Assembly (NCBI RefSeq): GCF_029537735.1
Contig: NZ_JARPUQ010000002.1
Location: 922,240 to 986,239 of the forward strand
DNA: 64,000 nucleotides
Source: Robiginitalea aestuariiviva
GTDB taxonomy: Bacteria; Bacteroidota; Bacteroidia; Flavobacteriales; Flavobacteriaceae
Direction of reading: 5' to 3'
Positions 10,934 through 18,459 of the stretch are shown here, in pieces. The notes beneath the pieces are model-generated. The model saw nothing but the letters and a program-made list of their open reading frames with translations, was not told the DNA's origin and did no database searches. Each line of letters begins with the position of its first letter. Position 1 is the stretch's first letter. Position numbers and translations under genes: made by a program.

Positions 10934-12052
10934 TTAGCCCATTACCTTCCTAAGGGCAGTGTTAAAGGCCTCTACTTCCTCCAGCGTACCGGTACTGATG
11001 CGCGCCCAGTTGGTCAGGGGTGGGAAGGGCCGGCCAATCTGCACGTTTTCCGTTGCCATTTTGCCGATCAGGCTGCGGATGTCCATGCCGCTGCGGAAAA
11101 AGACAAAATTGGTATGGGAGCGCACATAGGGCAACCCCAGGGTGTCCAGGTTTTTGTAGATCATGGCCTTGGCCTTTTCGTTCTGCTGTAGGCTGAATTT
11201 GTAAAAGGCATCGTCTTGCAGGGCCGCCTCGGCCGCAATCAGGGCCGGGGTGTTGGTGTTGGCCATCAGGGAATCCCGCAGGCGTGCAGCGATGTCCGGA
11301 CGAGCAATCAGGTATCCGATGCGGAAGCCCGCCAGGCCGTATACCTTGGAAAAGGTCTTGGATACGATTACGTTGTGACCCGCTTTCACAAATTCCACCA
11401 TGGAAGGGTAATCCGGTTCGGTGATAAAATCGTAATAGGCCTCGTCGCTGAAGATCACGGCCTTTTTCTCGGTGGCAGCGATAAAATCCCGGAGGCGGTC
11501 GGCCGGCAGCAGGGTACCGGAGGGGTTGTTCGGGTTGCAGATAAAGATCAGTCGCGTTTTGGAGGTTACACGCCGGTGCATGGCATCCAGGTCGTGGGAG
11601 AGGGTGTCATCCAGGGGTACGCGGTGTACGTAGGCGCCAAAATGTTCCGCGTAGGTCAGCAGGGCCTGGAAGGTGGGGTCTGCCGCGATCACTTCGCCCC
11701 CGCTAAGCCCATAGACCAGGCCTGTGGCCTTCAGGCCTTCGGTAGATCCGCCCGTGATCACCACGCAGGCCTCGGGCACCTCCTCCTTGGCCGCAATGGA
11801 CTTCACCAGGCTTTCTGAATAGGCAAAGGGGTACCTGCATCCGGCGTCCATGCGGTCTATCACAGCCTGGCGTACCCGCTGGGAGGGCCCGTAGGGATTT
11901 TCATTGGCGTTGAGTTTGACCGGCCCGGCCAAAGGCGGGCGCGTCAAAACAGGTTTGGACATTTCTGCCAGGGCGGAGGCCCCGCCAAAAAGGGTAAGCC
12001 CTCCTCCGAGGGCCATGGTTTTAAGCCATTGTCTGCGATCCGTCGAATTCAT
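10934..12052 (-). CDS. Tat-exported PLP aminotransferase, histidinol-phosphate aminotransferase-like (fold type I)
   Basis: A 372-residue class I/II aminotransferase. The core carries LNANENPYGPS, the substrate-loop motif; FICNPNNPSG; the PLP-binding SDEAY; and the Schiff-base lysine in SKTFSKVYGLAGFRIGY. These place it near HisC and related enzymes that transaminate histidinol phosphate, aromatic or other amino acids. Unusually, the N-terminus is a twin-arginine signal: DRRQWLKTMALGGGL followed by a hydrophobic stretch and ASALA. Export in folded form with bound PLP is therefore predicted, which argues against a role in histidine synthesis. No other his genes are nearby. The reaction is not known. 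Confidence 0.85.
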   Translation of the reverse strand: MNSTDRRQWLKTMALGGGLTLFGGASALAEMSKPVLTRPPLAGPVKLNANENPYGPSQRVRQAVIDRMDAGCRYPFAYSESLVKSIAAKEEVPEACVVITGGSTEGLKATGLVYGLSGGEVIAADPTFQALLTYAEHFGAYVHRVPLDDTLSHDLDAMHRRVTSKTRLIFICNPNNPSGTLLPADRLRDFIAATEKKAVIFSDEAYYDFITEPDYPSMVEFVKAGHNVIVSKTFSKVYGLAGFRIGYLIARPDIAARLRDSLMANTNTPALIAAEAALQDDAFYKFSLQQNEKAKAMIYKNLDTLGLPYVRSHTNFVFFRSGMDIRSLIGKMATENVQIGRPFPPLTNWARISTGTLEEVEAFNTALRKVMG

Positions 12053-12109
12053 ATCACTTGATTTGCGTATTGCATCAAGGTACGAAACTTTCAGAATTCC
12101 CGTTGCGGC

Positions 12110-12409
12110 TTAGAAGATGTGGTAGAGGGTATTGCTGAGCAGGATGGCCAGCATCAGGATTACCATAGCCAGGTTTACGGTAATGGCAATCACTTTCTTT
12201 TCGGTTAGGGGTTCCCCTATACCCCGGTATATGTAAAAGGATCCCAGGATGCCCAGGCAACAAGAGGCCAGCACCGGCAATCCGAACAGGACACGGGAAA
12301 TAGTGGGGTTAAAATTGATCATGATGGACACCGCAGCAAAGGTGAGCAGGATCAGGATGAACTTGCTCATGCGGTAGGACCTTTCGGTGTACTTGATTTC
12401 AGCGTCCAT
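12110..12409 (-). CDS. small membrane protein of unknown function
   Basis: A 99-residue protein with three hydrophobic segments (FILILLTFAAVSIMI; VLFGLPVLASCCLGILGSF; VIAITVNLAMVILMLAILL) and a charged N-terminus. I do not recognise the family. A second possible start is the internal Met in RMSKFILILL, which would shorten it by 13 residues. It sits 18 bases after the nuclease-like gene at 12428-12871 and 57 bases before the Tat aminotransferase gene, all on the same strand, so the three may form one operon. The coding nature is supported by the clean segment pattern and lack of a better frame. Confidence 0.65.
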   Translation of the reverse strand: MDAEIKYTERSYRMSKFILILLTFAAVSIMINFNPTISRVLFGLPVLASCCLGILGSFYIYRGIGEPLTEKKVIAITVNLAMVILMLAILLSNTLYHIF

Positions 12410-12427
12410 ACTTCTGGGGTTTAAGGG

Positions 12428-12871
12428 TTAAACGACCTTGATATTGGCCTTGAGTCCTTCGATAATGCCCCTGATATTTTCGATGGTGTCTTGCAAATGG
12501 TGCCGGATCAACAGCTCCGGGATCCGAATGGTGGTAAAACCGTTCTTGAAGGCTTCCATGGTCGATTCGAGTTCACAGATCGCCTGTTCTGCGGTCAGGG
12601 GTTTATGGCCCCGGTCGATTTCGATATTCAGCTTCACCCTGGAAATGGCCAGGTCTACGGTTTTCTTGCCATCCCACCAGGCCAGCATAGAAGGGATACC
12701 CGCTTCCTTAAGCCCGTAATACAGCACTACTGCTGCCTCCGGGATACCCTGCTGGCGAATCAAACGGTCTACCCGTTTGAAATGAGATTCGCAAAGTGCC
12801 GCCTTAAAGCGCTCCATGCTTTGGCGGTGGTCCAGATAGTTCAATGGTCTATTGCATTCCAGACAGCTCAT
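12428..12871 (-). CDS. small zinc-finger protein with Vsr/DUF559-like nuclease motif
   Basis: A 147-residue protein with no firm family name. Seen: C3, C6, C27 and H30, spaced like a treble-clef or zinc-ribbon site; a basic helix (FKRVDRLIRQQG); then D73 in TVDLAISRVK, E84 and D86 in LNIEIDRGHK, and a final GFTTIRIPE strand. The run from D73 to the last strand resembles the very-short-patch-repair/DUF559 branch of the PD-(D/E)XK fold, where an acidic pair precedes a Gly-His and a later helix and strand close the core. A DNA-directed role is inference. It is first in a reverse-strand group with the small membrane protein and is divergent from the Nramp/pxp operon. Confidence 0.7.
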   Translation of the reverse strand: MSCLECNRPLNYLDHRQSMERFKAALCESHFKRVDRLIRQQGIPEAAVVLYYGLKEAGIPSMLAWWDGKKTVDLAISRVKLNIEIDRGHKPLTAEQAICELESTMEAFKNGFTTIRIPELLIRHHLQDTIENIRGIIEGLKANIKVV

Positions 12872-12973
12872 GTGCTTATGTTCGATTTATAGTTCGTTTT
12901 ACAGGTTTCGGGAAAGTTATAACCCGCGATTTTTGGATTTCGTATAACGATTCGACGTATGACACTCCAGGGG

Positions 12974-12994
12974 TGGGGGAAACCCCCCTTTTTT
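12974..12994 (+). terminator. terminator-like hairpin in the leader of the Nramp/pxp operon
   Basis: GGGGG-AAA-CCCCC followed at once by six T residues reads as an intrinsic terminator on the plus strand. No plus-strand coding sequence lies upstream between it and the divergent gene at 12871. It could end a short leader or small RNA, or act as an attenuator about 90 bases before the transporter start. Confidence 0.45.
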
Positions 12995-13085
12995 CGATGA
13001 ACGACATTTTTTACCCGGCCGAAGCGGTCCGGGTAGCTTCCTGCGAAAGGGTTATCTTTACCCGAACCTCTAACCGGGCAAACGG

Positions 13086-14273
13086 ATGCGAAAAACAGGA
13101 CCTGGGCTGCTGATTGCAGCTGCTTTTATCGGGCCGGGAACGGTAACCACCTGCCTGCGGGCCGGCATCGAAAATGGATACACCCTGCTTTGGGCCCTCC
13201 TGCTCTCGGTACTGGCGACCCTGGTATTACAGGAAATGGCCGGGCGCCTGGGCCTGGTTACCCGTTCCGGGATCCCAGAAATCCTGCGCAGGCGTGCCAT
13301 GCGCCCGGCGTTGCGGTGGGGTGCCCTGGGGCTGATCCTGGCTGCGGTGGTGTTAGGCAATGCGGCGTACCAGGCGGGGAATGTGGCCGGGGCCGTGCTG
13401 GGGATGGAAGCCCTGGGCGGTAGCACCGGATATGTGGTATACCCCTGGTTGATCGGGGGCATTGCCGGGGGAATGCTTTGGTTTGGCACCTATAAATTCC
13501 TGGAAGGGGTTTTTGCCGTACTGGTAGGCCTGATGAGTCTATCCTTCCTGGTAGCAGCTGTGGCATTGGGTCCGGCCCTGCCGGCCTTGTTGGAAGGCTT
13601 GTTTGTTCCGCGGGCACCCGGGGCCTCCATCTGGACCGTCCTGGCCCTGATCGGGACCACCGTGGTCCCCTATAATGTATTCCTGTATGCTTCTTTGGTC
13701 AATGAAAAATGGTCCGGTGCCGAAAGTATCCCGGCCATGCGCCGGGACATTGGATTATCCGTGGTCCTGGGCGGCCTTATTTCTATGGGGATCCTGGTAG
13801 CCGCGGCAGCCTCAGGAGTTACCGGGGTTTCCGGGGTGATGGACCTGGCATCTGCCCTGGAGCCGGTATACGGAGCAGGTGCCCGTTACGGGTTGGGGAT
13901 CGGGCTATTTGCAGCCGGGATCAGTTCGGCCATTACCGCCCCGCTGGCTGCCGCCTATGTGGCCCAGCAGTGTATGGGCTGGGACCCTATGGTTGATCGC
14001 GCCAAATTCCGGGCCGTTTGGCTGGGGGTACTCCTGTTCGGGGTCCTTTCCCTGAGCCTGGAATTCAGGCCCCTGGAGGTGATCTACTTTGCGCAGATTG
14101 CCAATGCCCTTTTGCTGCCCCTGATTGCTGCCTTCCTCTGGTGGGGGGTGCGCAGCGGGGCCGTTATGGCAGGGTACCGAAATACAGCCTGGCAAAATGC
14201 CTTTGCCGCCGGGGTCTTGCTGGTTGTAACCCTGCTGGCTTTGAAAAGCATCCTGGGAATCCTGCAAAATTGA
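13086..14273 (+). CDS. Nramp-superfamily transporter (YcsG-like) with non-canonical binding site
   Basis: A 395-residue membrane protein with about eleven hydrophobic segments and the LeuT-type Nramp fold. It starts right at the first helix (TGPGLLIAAAFIGPGTVTTC). In true Mn/Fe Nramp carriers helix 1 has DPGN and helix 6 has MPH; here these read G16-P17-G18-T19 and V194-P195-Y196, so the acidic, amide and thioether metal ligands are all lost. The stop lies 3 bases before pxpA, so it belongs to the 5-oxoprolinase operon, matching the Bacillus ycsF-ycsG-kipI-kipA arrangement. Transport of 5-oxoproline or another organic solute is inferred from context; metal transport would be the default family call but is poorly supported. 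Confidence 0.85.
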   Translation: MRKTGPGLLIAAAFIGPGTVTTCLRAGIENGYTLLWALLLSVLATLVLQEMAGRLGLVTRSGIPEILRRRAMRPALRWGALGLILAAVVLGNAAYQAGNVAGAVLGMEALGGSTGYVVYPWLIGGIAGGMLWFGTYKFLEGVFAVLVGLMSLSFLVAAVALGPALPALLEGLFVPRAPGASIWTVLALIGTTVVPYNVFLYASLVNEKWSGAESIPAMRRDIGLSVVLGGLISMGILVAAAASGVTGVSGVMDLASALEPVYGAGARYGLGIGLFAAGISSAITAPLAAAYVAQQCMGWDPMVDRAKFRAVWLGVLLFGVLSLSLEFRPLEVIYFAQIANALLLPLIAAFLWWGVRSGAVMAGYRNTAWQNAFAAGVLLVVTLLALKSILGILQN

Positions 14274-14276
14274 CGT

Positions 14277-15014
14277 ATGTACCAGATCGATATTAATTGC
14301 GACACCGGGGAGGGGATTGGGAATGAGGCCTTGCTTATGCCCCTGATCGGTTCCTGCAACATAGCCTGCGGCGGCCATGCGGGCGATATGGCATCCATGG
14401 AGATGTGCGTGTCCTTGGCCCGGAAGCACGGGGTGCGTATCGGGGCGCACCCGTCATATCCGGACCGGGAACATTTCGGACGGCAATCCCTGGTGCTTGC
14501 GCCGGATGTCTTACAGGCCAGCCTGCAAGAGCAGCTCCGCGCCATGGACCAGGTTCTGGAATCTTCGGGCGCCCCTTTGCACCATATCAAGGCGCACGGG
14601 GCCCTCTATAATGACCTGGCTGTGGGAGGAGCCCTGGCCGCAACCTACCTGCAGGCCCTGGCTGCATATCGGGGAATAGCAGCCTTATATGCCCCTGCCG
14701 GTTCTGCATTTGCCGACCAGGCCCGCGAAGCCGGATATGCGGTAATTGAAGAGGCCTTTGGGGACCGCGCTTATCAACCCGATGGAAGGCTGGTGCCGAG
14801 AACGCAGGCAGGAGCCGTGCTCCATACCCCCGAGGCCGTCCTGGCCCAGTTGCTGGAGATGGTTTTCCATGAGCGGGTACGTAGCCTTCAAGGGGCCTTT
14901 GTGCCCCTGAAGGCACAGACCTTTTGCATTCACGGCGATACCGCCGAGGCGTATGAAATATTGGCGTATCTTGCCCGTGAATTGCCCAAACACCAGATAC
15001 AGTTCTCCCCGTGA
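14277..15014 (+). CDS. pxpA: 5-oxoprolinase subunit A (LamB/YcsF family)
   Basis: With PxpB and PxpC it opens 5-oxoproline (pyroglutamate) to glutamate using ATP, clearing a damage product formed from glutamine, glutamate and glutathione. The 245-residue product has the family start YQIDINCDTGEGIGNEALLMPLIGSCNIACGGHAGD, the GAHPSYPDREHFGR loop and the HIKAHGALYND motif, all as in characterised PxpA. It begins 3 bases after the transporter stop and its TGA overlaps the GTG start of pxpB by 4 bases, so translation is coupled. Full length and intact. Confidence 0.95.
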   Translation: MYQIDINCDTGEGIGNEALLMPLIGSCNIACGGHAGDMASMEMCVSLARKHGVRIGAHPSYPDREHFGRQSLVLAPDVLQASLQEQLRAMDQVLESSGAPLHHIKAHGALYNDLAVGGALAATYLQALAAYRGIAALYAPAGSAFADQAREAGYAVIEEAFGDRAYQPDGRLVPRTQAGAVLHTPEAVLAQLLEMVFHERVRSLQGAFVPLKAQTFCIHGDTAEAYEILAYLARELPKHQIQFSP

Positions 15015-15754
15015 AACCCGTACCCTTTCACCTGAAACCTTTTGGCAACCGCGCCGTCCTGCTGGAATGGCCCGCAGAAGTACGGGAGGAAATCCTGTTT
15101 GACCTGCTGGGGTTTGCGGACTTTTTAAAATTTGGGGATTTTCCGGAGTCCGAATGGGAATTCATCCCGATTTACCATTCCCTTACCCTGATCCGCAAAG
15201 CAGGCGACCTGCACTATGCAGAGACACATAAGGCCCTGGAAGCCGCCTATACCCGCTACCCGGGGCCAACGGATACAGTAGGACAGCATTGGGAGCTACC
15301 CGTCCATTACGATCCCGAATTTGGACCGGATCTGGAAACCGCTGCCCAGGCGGCCGGTATGGACGTGGACGGCCTGATCCGGGCACATACCGCCCAGGCC
15401 TACCGGGTGTATGGGATTGGCTTCCTGCCGGGCTTCCTTTACCTGGGGGGCGTTCCGGAACTCCTGCAGATTCCGCGAAAGGCAACGCCCAGGCTCCGGG
15501 TGCCCAAGGGCTCGGTTGGGCTGGCAGCACAACAAACCGGGATATATCCGCAGGAATCCCCCGGGGGGTGGAACCTGATCGGGAATTGCCCGATCCCCCT
15601 GTTTAATCCCGGCCAATCCCCGCCATGTTTTATTTCCCTGGGCGATACGGTGGGCTTTCGCAGCGTAAGCCGGAGTGAATTCGACCTCCATCGCATTGAA
15701 GGGGAAGTAGGGGTGTACGACTTTAAAAAGAAATACGGCAATGCTAAGGATTAA
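15011..15754 (+). CDS. pxpB: 5-oxoprolinase subunit B (KipI/allophanate hydrolase subunit 1 family)
   Basis: A 247-residue carboxyltransferase-domain protein, partner of PxpA and PxpC. The hallmark region is YRVYGIGFLPGFLYLGGVP followed by LQIPRKATPRLRVPKGSVGLA and QTGIYPQESPGGWNLIG, where GIYP and PGGW are strongly conserved. It starts with GTG at 15011 inside the overlap with pxpA and ends 14 bases inside pxpC. In Bacillus the orthologue KipI was first known as an inhibitor of the sporulation kinase KinA; in this non-sporulating lineage the enzymatic role is the sensible reading. Confidence 0.94.
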   Translation: MKPVPFHLKPFGNRAVLLEWPAEVREEILFDLLGFADFLKFGDFPESEWEFIPIYHSLTLIRKAGDLHYAETHKALEAAYTRYPGPTDTVGQHWELPVHYDPEFGPDLETAAQAAGMDVDGLIRAHTAQAYRVYGIGFLPGFLYLGGVPELLQIPRKATPRLRVPKGSVGLAAQQTGIYPQESPGGWNLIGNCPIPLFNPGQSPPCFISLGDTVGFRSVSRSEFDLHRIEGEVGVYDFKKKYGNAKD

Positions 15755-16586
15755 ACGCCCCGGGTTTTACGTATGTGTGCAGGATTACGGCCGCACGGAT
15801 TTCCGACATTACGGGGTGCCCCGAAGCGGGGTGGCAGACCGCCTTGCTGCAGCACGGGTGAATTCCCTGCTGGAAAATCCCGAAACGGATGCCATGCTGG
15901 AAATTGTGATGCAGGGCCCGGAGCTCGAGTTTGAAGTGCCTTCCCATATTGTTATAAGCGGGGGATGGATGGAAGCCTGGCTGGGGGATGAAGCCCTGGA
16001 AATGGATCGGGTTTACGCCGTACCCAAAGGCGCCGTATTGCAATGTGGGCGGGTGCGCAGCGGCTTTCGCGCCTATTTGGGCGTGAAAGGAGGCATCCGC
16101 ACCAAGCCGGTTATGGGTAGCCGTTCCCAGTTTTTCCCAGTCACCCCGGCGGGGAAACTGGTTGCGGGGGATGCGCTCCCCATCGAACCCTCCGAGGCTT
16201 TTGAGCCCAAACTCTTGAAGTTGAGCCCCCTGGAGTTGTATCGGGAAGTGACGCTGGACGTGGCCCCGGGGCCCGAATTTGAATTGCTGGACGAACCCGC
16301 TCGCGATGCCCTTTTCAACACGGTGTTTACCCTGGCTAAGGAACACGATCGCATGGCCTGTCAGCTGCAGGAAACCCTGCCGCCGCATACCCACCGGATG
16401 ATTACCTCGGCAACCCTGCCGGGTACCGTACAACTTACCCCTGCGGGCAAGCTGATCCTGCTGATGCCCGATGGGCAAACCACGGGGGGCTACCCCAGGA
16501 TGCTGCAACTGTCTGCCCGGGCACAGAGTATACTGGCCCAGAAGAAATTCGGGGATCGGGTGCGTTTTCGGGAAGATTCCTTCTGA
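15741..16586 (+). CDS. pxpC: 5-oxoprolinase subunit C (KipA/allophanate hydrolase subunit 2 family)
   Basis: A 281-residue biotin-dependent carboxyltransferase-like protein, third subunit of the prokaryotic 5-oxoprolinase. Seen: the opening IKRPGFYVCVQDYGRTDFRHYGVPRSGVAD, the FRAYLGVKGGI segment, VMGSRSQFFP, and the late TPAGKLILLMPDGQTTGGYPRM, all diagnostic. It overlaps pxpB by 14 bases and closes the operon that begins with the Nramp-like gene. The following 196 bases hold no gene and lead to ilvD. Confidence 0.94.
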   Translation: MLRIKRPGFYVCVQDYGRTDFRHYGVPRSGVADRLAAARVNSLLENPETDAMLEIVMQGPELEFEVPSHIVISGGWMEAWLGDEALEMDRVYAVPKGAVLQCGRVRSGFRAYLGVKGGIRTKPVMGSRSQFFPVTPAGKLVAGDALPIEPSEAFEPKLLKLSPLELYREVTLDVAPGPEFELLDEPARDALFNTVFTLAKEHDRMACQLQETLPPHTHRMITSATLPGTVQLTPAGKLILLMPDGQTTGGYPRMLQLSARAQSILAQKKFGDRVRFREDSF

Positions 16587-16735
16587 CCCCTGTATTTCAG
16601 GCCTGATTTAACTCATGATTGAATATGGTAATTTTTAGCACCTAAGACACTGTAATACAGTATTTTGGTAGCTTTAAACTTCAAATGAGCACATAGCCAG
16701 ACCAGGTTCGTGTCCATAAGGCTTTAACAATCCTA

Positions 16736-16743
16736 TATCTTTG
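16736..16743 (+). promoter_or_regulatory. -7 promoter element of the ilv operon
   Basis: TATCTTTG matches TAnnTTTG and would start transcription about 35 bases before the ilvD ATG. A small GGGC-AAT-GCCC hairpin follows in the leader. No clear TTG is present at -33. No leader peptide rich in Ile, Val or Leu codons was found upstream. Confidence 0.45.
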
Positions 16744-16782
16744 GATAAGGGCAATGCCCCTGCTTTGATGTGAAGGATACAT

Positions 16783-18459
16783 ATGGAATTAAATAAATAC
16801 AGTAAAAACGTTACCCAGGACCCAACCCAACCCGCTGCGCAGGCCATGCTACACGCCATTGGCCTGACCGAAGATGACCTCGCCAAACCCCTGATTGGGG
16901 TGGCAAGCACGGGGTATGAGGGCAACCCTTGTAATATGCACCTGAATGACCTTGCCGGGTATGTAAAGGAAGGCATACAGCAAACGGATCTGGTAGGTTT
17001 GATTTTCAATACCATAGGCGTAAGTGATGGGATCTCCATGGGGACATACGGGATGCGGTATTCCCTGCCTTCCCGCGATATTATCGCGGATTCCATGGAA
17101 ACCGTGGTACAGGCCATGAACTATGACGGCCTGGTAACCGTGGTGGGTTGCGACAAAAACATGCCGGGCGCCCTAATGGCTATGATCCGGCTGAACCGCC
17201 CCTCCGTTCTGGTGTACGGCGGAACCATAGCCTCCGGCTGTTTGAACAACCAGAAACTGGATGTGGTTTCGGCCTTTGAGGCCTGGGGTCAAAAAGTGGC
17301 CGGGAACATGGGCGAGGCCGAATACAAGCAAGTGATACAGCACGCCTGCCCGGGGGCCGGTGCCTGCGGCGGCATGTATACTGCCAATACCATGGCTTCG
17401 GCCATTGAAGCCCTGGGGATGTCCCTCCCGTTCAGTTCTTCCAACCCTGCTGTAGGGGCGGATAAGAAGCAGGATTGCCTGAAGGCGGGCCAGGCCGTGC
17501 GCCAACTCCTTGAAAAAGACATTAAGCCCCTGGATATCGTAACCCGTAAATCCCTGGAAAATGCCATCCGCCTGGTGGTGCTGATGGGGGGCTCTACCAA
17601 TGCGGTCCTGCATTTCCTGGCCATTGCCCGGGCGGCCGAGGTGGAATTCACCCTGGATGATTTCCAGCGCATCAGCGACGAGACTCCCTTTTTGGCGGAC
17701 CTGAAACCCAGCGGGAAATACCTGATGGAAGATGTACACCGCGTAGGCGGGATCCCGGCTGTGCTCAAGTTTATGCTCCGGGAAGGGATGCTTCACGGGG
17801 ATTGTTTGACCGTAACCGGGAAAACCCTGGCCGAGAACCTGGCGGAGGTACCCGACCTGCAGGAAGGACAAAAAGTAATCCACCCGCTTTCCGACCCTAT
17901 CAAACCCACGGGGCACCTGCGCATCCTTTACGGGAACCTGTCGCCCACCGGGGCCGTAGCCAAGATCACCGGGAAGGAAGGGCTCCGATTTGAAGGCCCG
18001 GCCAAGGTTTTTGAAAGCGAGTTTGAAGCCAATGACGGCATCGGGGCCGGGAAGGTTAAAAAGGGAGACGTGGTGGTGATTCGCTATGAAGGGCCCATGG
18101 GCGGCCCGGGTATGCCCGAAATGCTGAAGCCCACCAGTGCCATTATGGGGGCTGGCCTGGGCAAGGAGGTGGCCCTGATTACCGACGGACGTTTCTCCGG
18201 GGGGACCCACGGCTTTGTGGTGGGGCACGTTACCCCCGAGGCTCAGGACGGCGGCCCGATCGCCCTGGTACAGGATGGGGATATCATCACGCTCGATGCT
18301 GAAACCAATTCGATTTCGGTAGCCCTGTCCGAAGCGGAACTGGAAGCGCGCCGCGCCGCCTGGAAACAGCCCCCGCTGAAAGTCCGCAAGGGCAGCCTTT
18401 ACAAATACGCCAAAACGGTTTCATCGGCTTCGGAAGGCTGTGTAACCGATGCATTATAA
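16783..18459 (+). CDS. ilvD: dihydroxy-acid dehydratase
   Basis: Removes water from 2,3-dihydroxy-3-methylbutanoate or -pentanoate to give the 2-oxo acids that precede valine and isoleucine; an iron-sulfur enzyme. The 558-residue product has the cluster cysteines in [23 protein letters not shown] and [16 protein letters not shown], and the C-terminal [15 protein letters not shown] and [11 protein letters not shown] motifs. Length is typical. It heads a forward operon, with 21 bases to ilvB, and a -7 element lies about 40 bases upstream. Confidence 0.97.

Follow-up and report, generated by a model that had tools for sequence, protein, structure and literature searches.

The window analysed here, a 64,000-nucleotide stretch of Robiginitalea aestuariiviva DNA (contig NZ_JARPUQ010000002.1, positions 922,240 to 986,239), carries a gene for an Nramp-fold transporter immediately upstream of pxpA, pxpB and pxpC, which encode the subunits of 5-oxoprolinase (Table 1). 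The transporter stop codon, TGA, occupies 14271-14273 and the ATG of pxpA begins at 14277, which leaves a gap of 3 bases, while pxpA and pxpB overlap by 4 bases and pxpB and pxpC by 14. The three pxp genes are thus adjacent and co-directional, as in a PxpABC 5-oxoprolinase operon. An earlier reading made from the letters of the window (hereafter the sequence-only reading) had described the same gap and overlaps, and our coordinates agree with it. The transporter matched PF01566 (Nramp) at 248.9 bits, against a gathering cut-off of 29.8, over positions 1-356 of the 357 in the profile; the NCBIfam models for MntH and nramp (NF001923 and TIGR01197) failed on it (119 vs 430 and 82 vs 272.5 bits). 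The idea that the operon holds a metal riboswitch was rejected, as an Rfam search of window positions 12000-17000 gave no family match to E 0.1.

Table 1. Positions of the operon genes and transporter motifs in the window, and loci of one subclass of relatives (L numbers are our handles for loci, G numbers for genomes).
Feature	Position	Strand	Basis or remark
Nramp-fold transporter, 395 amino acids, non-metal class, predicted 5-oxoproline importer	13086-14273	+	PF01566, motifs, AlphaFold2 model
pxpA (LamB/YcsF), 5-oxoprolinase subunit	14277-15014	+	PF03746 (LamB_YcsF) 268 bits; NF003814 249 bits vs cut-off 226
pxpB, 5-oxoprolinase subunit	15011-15754	+	PF02682 (CT_C_D) 215 bits; TIGR00370 146.7 bits vs cut-off 145.55
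pxpC, 5-oxoprolinase subunit	15741-16586	+	PF02626 (CT_A_B) 226 bits; under NCBIfam cut-offs (151 vs 500 and 194.5 vs 230.2 bits)
Helix 1 GPGT, residues 16-19, replaces DPGN	13131-13142	+	Model helix break at residues 15-16
Helix 3 YQAGN, residues 95-99	13368-13382	+	Relatives mostly YEAGN
Helix 6 TTVVPYN, residues 191-197, replaces A[T/V/L]VMPH[N/A]	13656-13676	+	Model helix break at residues 193-194
Helix 10 QIAN, residues 337-340	14094-14105	+	Gln as in metal carriers; Asn as in NRMT-like rows (MntH rows: Leu)
VTYN/VAYN-subclass transporters beside oxidoreductase genes	L037, L174-L176, L178, L179, L185

Metal-site motifs, fold and extent of the branch

Helix 1 of the transporter reads AAAFIGPGTVTT and helix 6 reads GTTVVPYN. 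In a phmmer alignment to DraNramp and EleNRMT, GPGT aligned with the metal-site residues of helix 1 and TTVVPY with those of helix 6 (A..MPH). The Asp, Asn, Met and first helix-6 His of the metal site are G, T, V and Y in the class described below, and in the window protein the Slc11/MntH signature has changed from DxxN to GxxT, from A/CxxM to TxxV and from two His to Tyr196 and Tyr201. An AlphaFold2 model built with 63 sequences (predicted local distance difference test score 84.5, predicted template modelling score 0.86) placed the breaks of helices 1 and 6 at these motifs. Foldseek ranked DraNramp and EleNRMT at the top, with query template modelling scores (TM-scores) of 0.81-0.88 within the first ten hits; amino-acid and cation-chloride carriers that share the fold appeared from rank 30 onward. 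The Pfam match, the alignment and the model, a structure prediction that the sequence-only reading had proposed, all bear out its description of an Nramp fold with GPGT for DPGN and VPY for MPH. That reading had also stated that all main metal ligands are missing, which holds for Asp, Asn, Met and the first helix-6 His but not for the helix-10 Gln, which is kept. Its case depended on there being no acidic or Met ligands at shifted positions. We rejected such ligands, as the alignment showed no conserved Asp, Glu or Met in helices 1 and 6; what is left there is Cys23 and, in relatives, the second His.

Relatives were drawn from 296 genomes of the phylum (taken to be Bacteroidota on the basis of named relatives), 80 close loci (from records titled as Flavobacteriaceae or as other groups of Bacteroidota), genomes of the same genus and family, and plasmids. 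Among the 296 genomes, the branch of the window protein was set by a similarity of at least 148 bits, the next group beginning at 117 bits; it comprised 63 genomes from 30 genera and 12 families, of which 62 were read and G119 was left out. In these 62 relatives, found by similarity alone, TT[VI]V.YN was present in 62/62 and GPG[TS] in 61/62, and the one exception (L044) has a trimmed start with GPGT present upstream, so that the conservation of the motif exceeds chance. In the 80 close loci, GPGT was found in all (one with an unread letter just before it), TT[VI]VPYN in 79 and TTVVLYN in 1. We defined the class by TT....YN in helix 6 together with GPG[T/S] in helix 1, which fixes these positions by definition. 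Independently of that definition, N99, S281, T284, Q337 and N340 were invariant in the 178 class rows (168 distinct sequences; L181 was omitted from the class table for its length). The 26 DPGN rows carry N19, A191, M194 and H196.

In a tree of 83 rows, 54 class members lay on one side of a branch with a Shimodaira-Hasegawa-like approximate likelihood ratio test support of 97, apart from MntH, the NRMT-like rows (a branch of their own in our trees) and three further groups; a second tree of 68 rows gave a support of 99/92. Judged from the aligned sequences, the whole class has lost the main metal signature, which makes this a class feature and no oddity of the window protein. Further PF01566 groups without DPGN were also seen, reading GSGS/TTALWPN (L050, L206-L208), GPGS/SSFS-like (L193, L221, L140) and GTGS (L203, L210, L211, L216, L220, L225, L226, L229, L230). 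The genome of the window itself gave three PF01566 matches, namely this transporter, a second and very divergent protein (L002:1411-2661, 46 bits, helix 1 IGTSH) and a weak match that reads as an SSS-type carrier; none is an MntH of the DPGN/MPH type.

Pairing with PxpA or HyuB and neighbouring genes

PxpA was scored by PF03746 in 58 of the 296 genomes (57 above the cut-off used, a sub-threshold match in G106 being dropped) and HyuB, a member of the unrelated hydantoinase/oxoprolinase family, by PF02538 in 45. The 63 branch genomes carried PxpA only in 41 cases and HyuB only in 22; none had both and none had neither. By comparison, either enzyme was present in 101/296 genomes as background (Fisher p 4.5e-38, uncorrected for descent) and in 3 of the 25 DPGN-class genomes read. 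The same exchange was seen within one genus, g70, in which five of six branch genomes have PxpA; the sixth, G282 (97% complete), lacks it and carries a fused hyuAB 0.6 kb from the transporter gene on the opposite strand, and its transporter is 76% identical to those of three congeners. The transporter thus follows the enzyme change in g70, as expected of a 5-oxoproline carrier and not of a metal carrier that serves PxpABC, unless both enzymes need that metal. Taken together, these results demonstrate that two enzyme families which open lactams and are unrelated to each other are co-located with the branch and complementary in their presence.

The gene order is consistent in the close relatives. 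In 76/80 close loci, pxpA follows the transporter gene on the same strand, at no more than 304 bases in 75, and pxpA, pxpB and pxpC are all present in 75/80. Within the genus of the window, pxpA is downstream in 8/8 loci, its match starting 12-24 bases on; a ninth genome (G303) holds a 63-residue fragment and stands outside the 8. Among haloarchaea, hyuA directly follows the transporter in 10 of the 11 loci read (of 23 such records), the exception being Natrononativus (L138); the hyuA of Halobellus (L238) is unannotated and was found by tblastn. The haloarchaeal HyuA matched N-methylhydantoinase at 490 bits and a chain labelled 5-oxoprolinase at 403; its matches to acetophenone and acetone carboxylase subunits were weaker, at 278 and 213 bits. 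A Haladaptatus operon contains an extra gene of the Asp/Glu-racemase family. In the Bacteroidota sample, hyu genes are adjacent to the transporter at 0-9 bases in L041, L042 and L182-L184, and in L181, read by hand, the hyuA match begins 9 bases downstream; they adjoin at 42-151 bases in L177, L180 and L189 as single open reading frames of 1270-1288 codons, and lie within 3 kb in L040, L043 and L052. Furthermore, in a deeper sample with flanks of 4-5 kb (L181 omitted), pxp or hyu matches were nearby in 14/33 class members vs 1/46 other PF01566 members (Fisher p 7e-6).

A gene for DUF2891 (PF11199; PDB 8ieu/8iev), a predicted lipoprotein whose lipobox was read by eye, lies directly upstream of the transporter in 49/80 close loci (L054-L133); the copy in the genome of the window is unlinked (L231:1342-2484). 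According to part of a published account, C. jejuni cj0552-4 encode DUF969, DUF979 and DUF2891 proteins, and a mutant lost the use of 5-oxoproline in a preliminary test (PMC12795558). A possible role of DUF2891 is to produce or collect 5-oxoproline on the outer side of the membrane. A role as a substitute for PxpABC was rejected, since the four genomes in which DUF2891 adjoins the transporter with no pxp gene close by (G053 and the genomes of L080, L086 and L120) carry PxpA elsewhere; of the genomes behind this check, 11/12 have PxpA and G282 does not.

Other features were noted around these loci. In haloarchaea, a CopG (ribbon-helix-helix) regulator of 181-183 amino acids precedes the transporter at L134:5306-5851 and in 9/10 others (not L137); it is also found at L138, where hyuAB is missing, and the three regulators tested by Pfam had only domains of the ribbon-helix-helix type. 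In the window, two open reading frames on the minus strand (12110-12409 and 12428-12871) next to the operon had no Pfam match. Scans of viral contigs with A1 and P0002 gave nothing useful.

The YcsG type and the probable substrate of the branch

Another Nramp-fold gene, here called the YcsG type, was found in pxp clusters on plasmids of Lactiplantibacillus plantarum (L240), Rhizobium (L248), Deinococcus (L246) and a strain of A. baumannii (L245), and without pxp in Ilyobacter (L247); of the seven plasmid pxpA loci found by a PxpA match, 6 had no adjacent Nramp gene. The 16 members read carry GPGF and GGT[VI]GGY and form a branch of their own (100/100). Identity to the window protein was 23.3% for L240 and 25.9% for L245, and the YcsG PDB model 9a52 was 21% identical to the window model in Foldseek. 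We assign B. subtilis YcsG and C. glutamicum PxpT to this second branch from the operon type, the 21% Foldseek identity and the 50% identity between PxpT and YcsG that is given in passages of PMC13274462. Close orthology of the window protein with YcsG, PxpT and MumT was rejected because of the low identity, the different motifs and the separate branches, and published YcsG and PxpT phenotypes are therefore not transferable by simple orthology. The sequence-only reading had cited the same link in B. subtilis as evidence for the window protein; this argument is not supported, as we assign YcsG to the far branch. That reading had suggested a phylogeny of Nramp proteins in pxp operons as a check on shared motif loss; both branches are without the metal signature, their motifs differ, and each forms a branch of its own.

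In the 296 genomes, the YcsG type gave 11 strong matches and shared no genome with the window branch. Among the 57 PxpA genomes, 41 had the window branch, 10 the YcsG type, none both and 6 neither (Fisher p 1.9e-7, uncorrected for descent), and the transporter was within 4 kb of pxpA in 31/41 and 9/10 cases, respectively. The two branches look like mutual replacements among PxpA genomes. One tree grouped the window branch with MntH and NRMT (96/90); when three long rows were removed, a tree uniting it with the YcsG type was 0.64 log units better, and the approximately unbiased test rejected neither (p 0.563). We also observed that the A. baumannii locus (L245:5899-11719), with a YcsG-type Nramp, PxpA, a D-glutamate-cyclase-like protein, PxpB/C-like proteins and biotin carboxylase, resembles a pxp-type operon. 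Its gene order matches that of mumTLUHC, which passages of PMC5050338 place in the manganese and urea metabolism of A. baumannii, and the urea and Mn readings of that operon merit a second look.

The known common substrate of PxpABC and OPLAH-type HyuAB is 5-oxoproline. We infer that this shared substrate is the solute carried, and consider it probable that what the transporter takes up is 5-oxoproline (pyroglutamate) or a closely similar lactam acid with a five-membered ring. The sequence-only reading had proposed 5-oxoproline import, and the class-wide loss of the metal signature and the comparative genomics agree with it, minus the B. subtilis argument. More tentatively, and with some doubt as to its full breadth, we propose that the 'orphan' branch as a whole consists of 5-oxoproline (lactam-acid) carriers of Bacteroidota and haloarchaea that serve either kind of 5-oxoprolinase and form a second branch besides YcsG/PxpT. 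For the YcsG/PxpT type, 5-oxoproline transport is already proposed in print and disputed; the present analysis adds another branch, together with the two kinds of enzyme that accompany it. Our literature search, which left most subscription papers beyond its reach, found no paper assigning this branch a substrate.

In the proposed mechanism, 5-oxoproline would enter through the transporter and PxpABC of the same cluster would open the ring to give glutamate. In amino-acid carriers of the LeuT fold, a GxG loop binds the substrate carboxylate through backbone amides. The transporter would work by a rocking bundle of the LeuT type, its substrate seated where helices 1 and 6 are broken, and the change of Asp to Gly would make a G-P-G loop in helix 1 that could hold a carboxylate like the GxG loop. 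The putative pocket would be lined by T19, T191, Y196, N99 and N340; the smaller number of acidic residues would also suit an anion. In most relatives, the Glu of helix 3 could serve as a proton carrier; the window protein has Gln in its place.

Several observations weigh against this interpretation. On the side of the protein, the NCBIfam equivalog NF037982, 'Nramp family divalent metal transporter', passes its cut-off (65.4 vs 50 bits), and the helix-10 Gln of metal carriers is retained (Q337 in 178/178 class rows). A Cys at residue 23, one turn beyond GPGT, is found in the window protein and in 155/178 rows; it is Cys in 133/135 pxp-linked rows and mostly Ala in hyu-linked rows. Residue 96 in helix 3 is Glu in 167/178 rows and Gln in 11/178, the window protein having Gln, and a second helix-6 His is present in 148/178 relatives where the window protein has Tyr. 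Because of Cys23 and this second His, we weighed metal transport slightly up and 5-oxoproline import slightly down. On the side of the genomes, 27 carry one of the enzymes without either branch of transporter (6 with PxpA, 21 with HyuB), a distance of more than 4 kb separates the transporter gene from pxpA in 10 of the 41 branch genomes with PxpA, and 19 of the 33 deeper class members lack a pxp or hyu match nearby. Members of HyuAB can open hydantoins or other lactams, and the hyu-linked transporters may carry one of these instead. In addition, 7/9 members of the VTYN/VAYN subclass adjoin genes for the alpha and beta chains of a 2-oxoacid:acceptor oxidoreductase (Table 1); these seven genomes carry HyuB elsewhere, and the substrate of the subclass may differ from that of the rest of the class. 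Finally, our literature search found no uptake measurement for any member of the branch, and passages of two papers (PMC10448178, PMC5050338) describe Mn phenotypes of the other branch that is linked to pxp.

One alternative is that the transporter carries another solute of the pathway, such as glutamate, glutamine, proline, D-glutamate or a pyroglutamyl peptide, or a broader range of lactams and hydantoins, with 5-oxoproline as a minor substrate or none. The similarity of the HyuAB-type partners to caprolactamase and N-methylhydantoinase, the racemase-family gene of Haladaptatus, a possible action of the DUF2891 lipoprotein on a precursor outside the cell and the different partner of the VTYN subclass all fit this reading. 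However, glutamate import needs no oxoprolinase-type enzyme, and yet one is present in 63/63 genomes; the known substrate that PxpABC and OPLAH-type HyuAB share also points elsewhere. We regard this alternative as unlikely.

We consider it still less probable that the protein imports a metal (Mn2+, Fe2+ or Mg2+) through a rebuilt site, feeding a metal-dependent 5-oxoprolinase or the cell. Both kinds of enzyme may use divalent metal with ATP, and the helix-10 Gln, Cys23 and, in relatives, the helix-3 Glu and second helix-6 His could act as ligands or proton carriers; the genome of the window, as noted, has no matched MntH of the DPGN type. B. subtilis YcsG (MntG) and A. baumannii MumT have both been claimed as Mn importers. 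Passages of PMC13274462 cite earlier work, presumably that of Niehaus in 2017, for the ycsG deletion. Those of PMC10448178 argue for Mn import by YcsG, as its over-expression raises cell Mn and MntR binds the pxpA promoter, and hold that the earlier ycsG work had left room for polar effects. For MumT, the corresponding argument in PMC5050338, as far as its excerpts go, is that a mumT mutant has lower Mn and is complemented. A triple mutant of EcoDMT without Asn, Ala and Met still moved Mn, according to an excerpt of PMC8806188. Against metal import, the window protein has lost not only the four ligands replaced by G, T, V and Y but also the helix-3 Glu and the second His. Section 10 of that paper terms the metal-site Asp universally conserved in SLC11 and reports that its mutation strongly compromises transport by NRMT and by the family members tested (PMC8806188); as this Asp is Gly in the class, metal transport by the Gly version is unlikely. 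Furthermore, the presence of PxpA or HyuB, and never of neither, is simpler with a common substrate, the Rfam search of the operon was blank, and the papers on Mn seem to deal with the other branch, which is itself without the metal signature.

An exporter or a sensor (transceptor) of 5-oxoproline is very improbable: sequence cannot show direction and 5-oxoproline also forms inside cells, but the catabolic operon partners argue for uptake, and PxpT, of the other branch, is required for growth on external 5-oxoproline (both points on 5-oxoproline from passages of PMC13274462).

Import of 5-oxoproline by this branch would have several consequences. Haloarchaeal plasmid records annotate branch genes as divalent metal transporters; such 'Nramp' annotations would then be wrong, and the outgroup used for Slc11 evolution would gain a substrate. 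The dispute between Mn and 5-oxoproline could be tested on two separate branches, and the either/or enzyme pattern could help to identify the substrate and to probe HyuAB and DUF2891. If the 'orphan' branch as a whole consists of such carriers, DUF2891 would be an outer partner of 5-oxoproline supply, and metal import by Nramp would have arisen beside or from an organic-anion carrier, its GxG carboxylate loop being remade into the DPGN metal loop.

Comparison with known systems

The transporter shares with Slc11/Nramp/MntH proteins (DraNramp, ScaDMT and EcoDMT) the fold, the broken helices 1 and 6 and the helix-10 Gln, and the TM-scores to DraNramp within the first ten Foldseek hits were 0.81-0.86. 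It differs from them in having GPGT and T..VPY for their DPGN and A..MPH, and its identity to one Bacteroidota MntH row (L048) is 28.7%. With NRMT (EleNRMT, 7qia), it shares a TM-score of 0.88, the helix-6 Thr and the helix-10 Gln and Asn, and it is 33.4% identical to the DAGG-type L046. However, NRMT has the helix-1 Asp (DxxG) that is important for transport, where Gly stands here (GxxT), and its helix 6 reads TxxA/T, whereas that of the window protein reads TxxV, with Thr in common and Val at the fourth position.

A closer likeness in motif was found to the 'orphan' outgroup of Slc11 within PF01566 that Cellier describes in passages of PMC9606685 and PMC10606218. In common are the helix-1 changes of D to G and N to T, the Y/N and fixed Gly of helix 3 and the T/V/Y of helix 6; matched against the substitutions named in the text rather than against alignments, G16, T19, Y95, N99, G98, G102, G106, T191, V194 and Y196 of the window protein agree. 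The orphan sequences themselves lie outside our trees, and those passages name no substrate or gene partner for the outgroup. The YcsG/PxpT/MumT type has in common with the window protein its place beside pxpA, the absence of a metal signature, GPG in helix 1, the GN..G...G run in helix 3 and a similarly placed Thr and Tyr in helix 6; it differs in its identity of 23-26%, in GPGF and GGT[VI]GGY and in its own branch. Lastly, the 5-oxoproline transporter formed by DUF969 and DUF979 (C. jejuni cj0552-3) belongs, judged by name, to other protein families, and shares with many transporters of the branch an adjoining DUF2891 gene, as a passage of PMC12795558 indicates.

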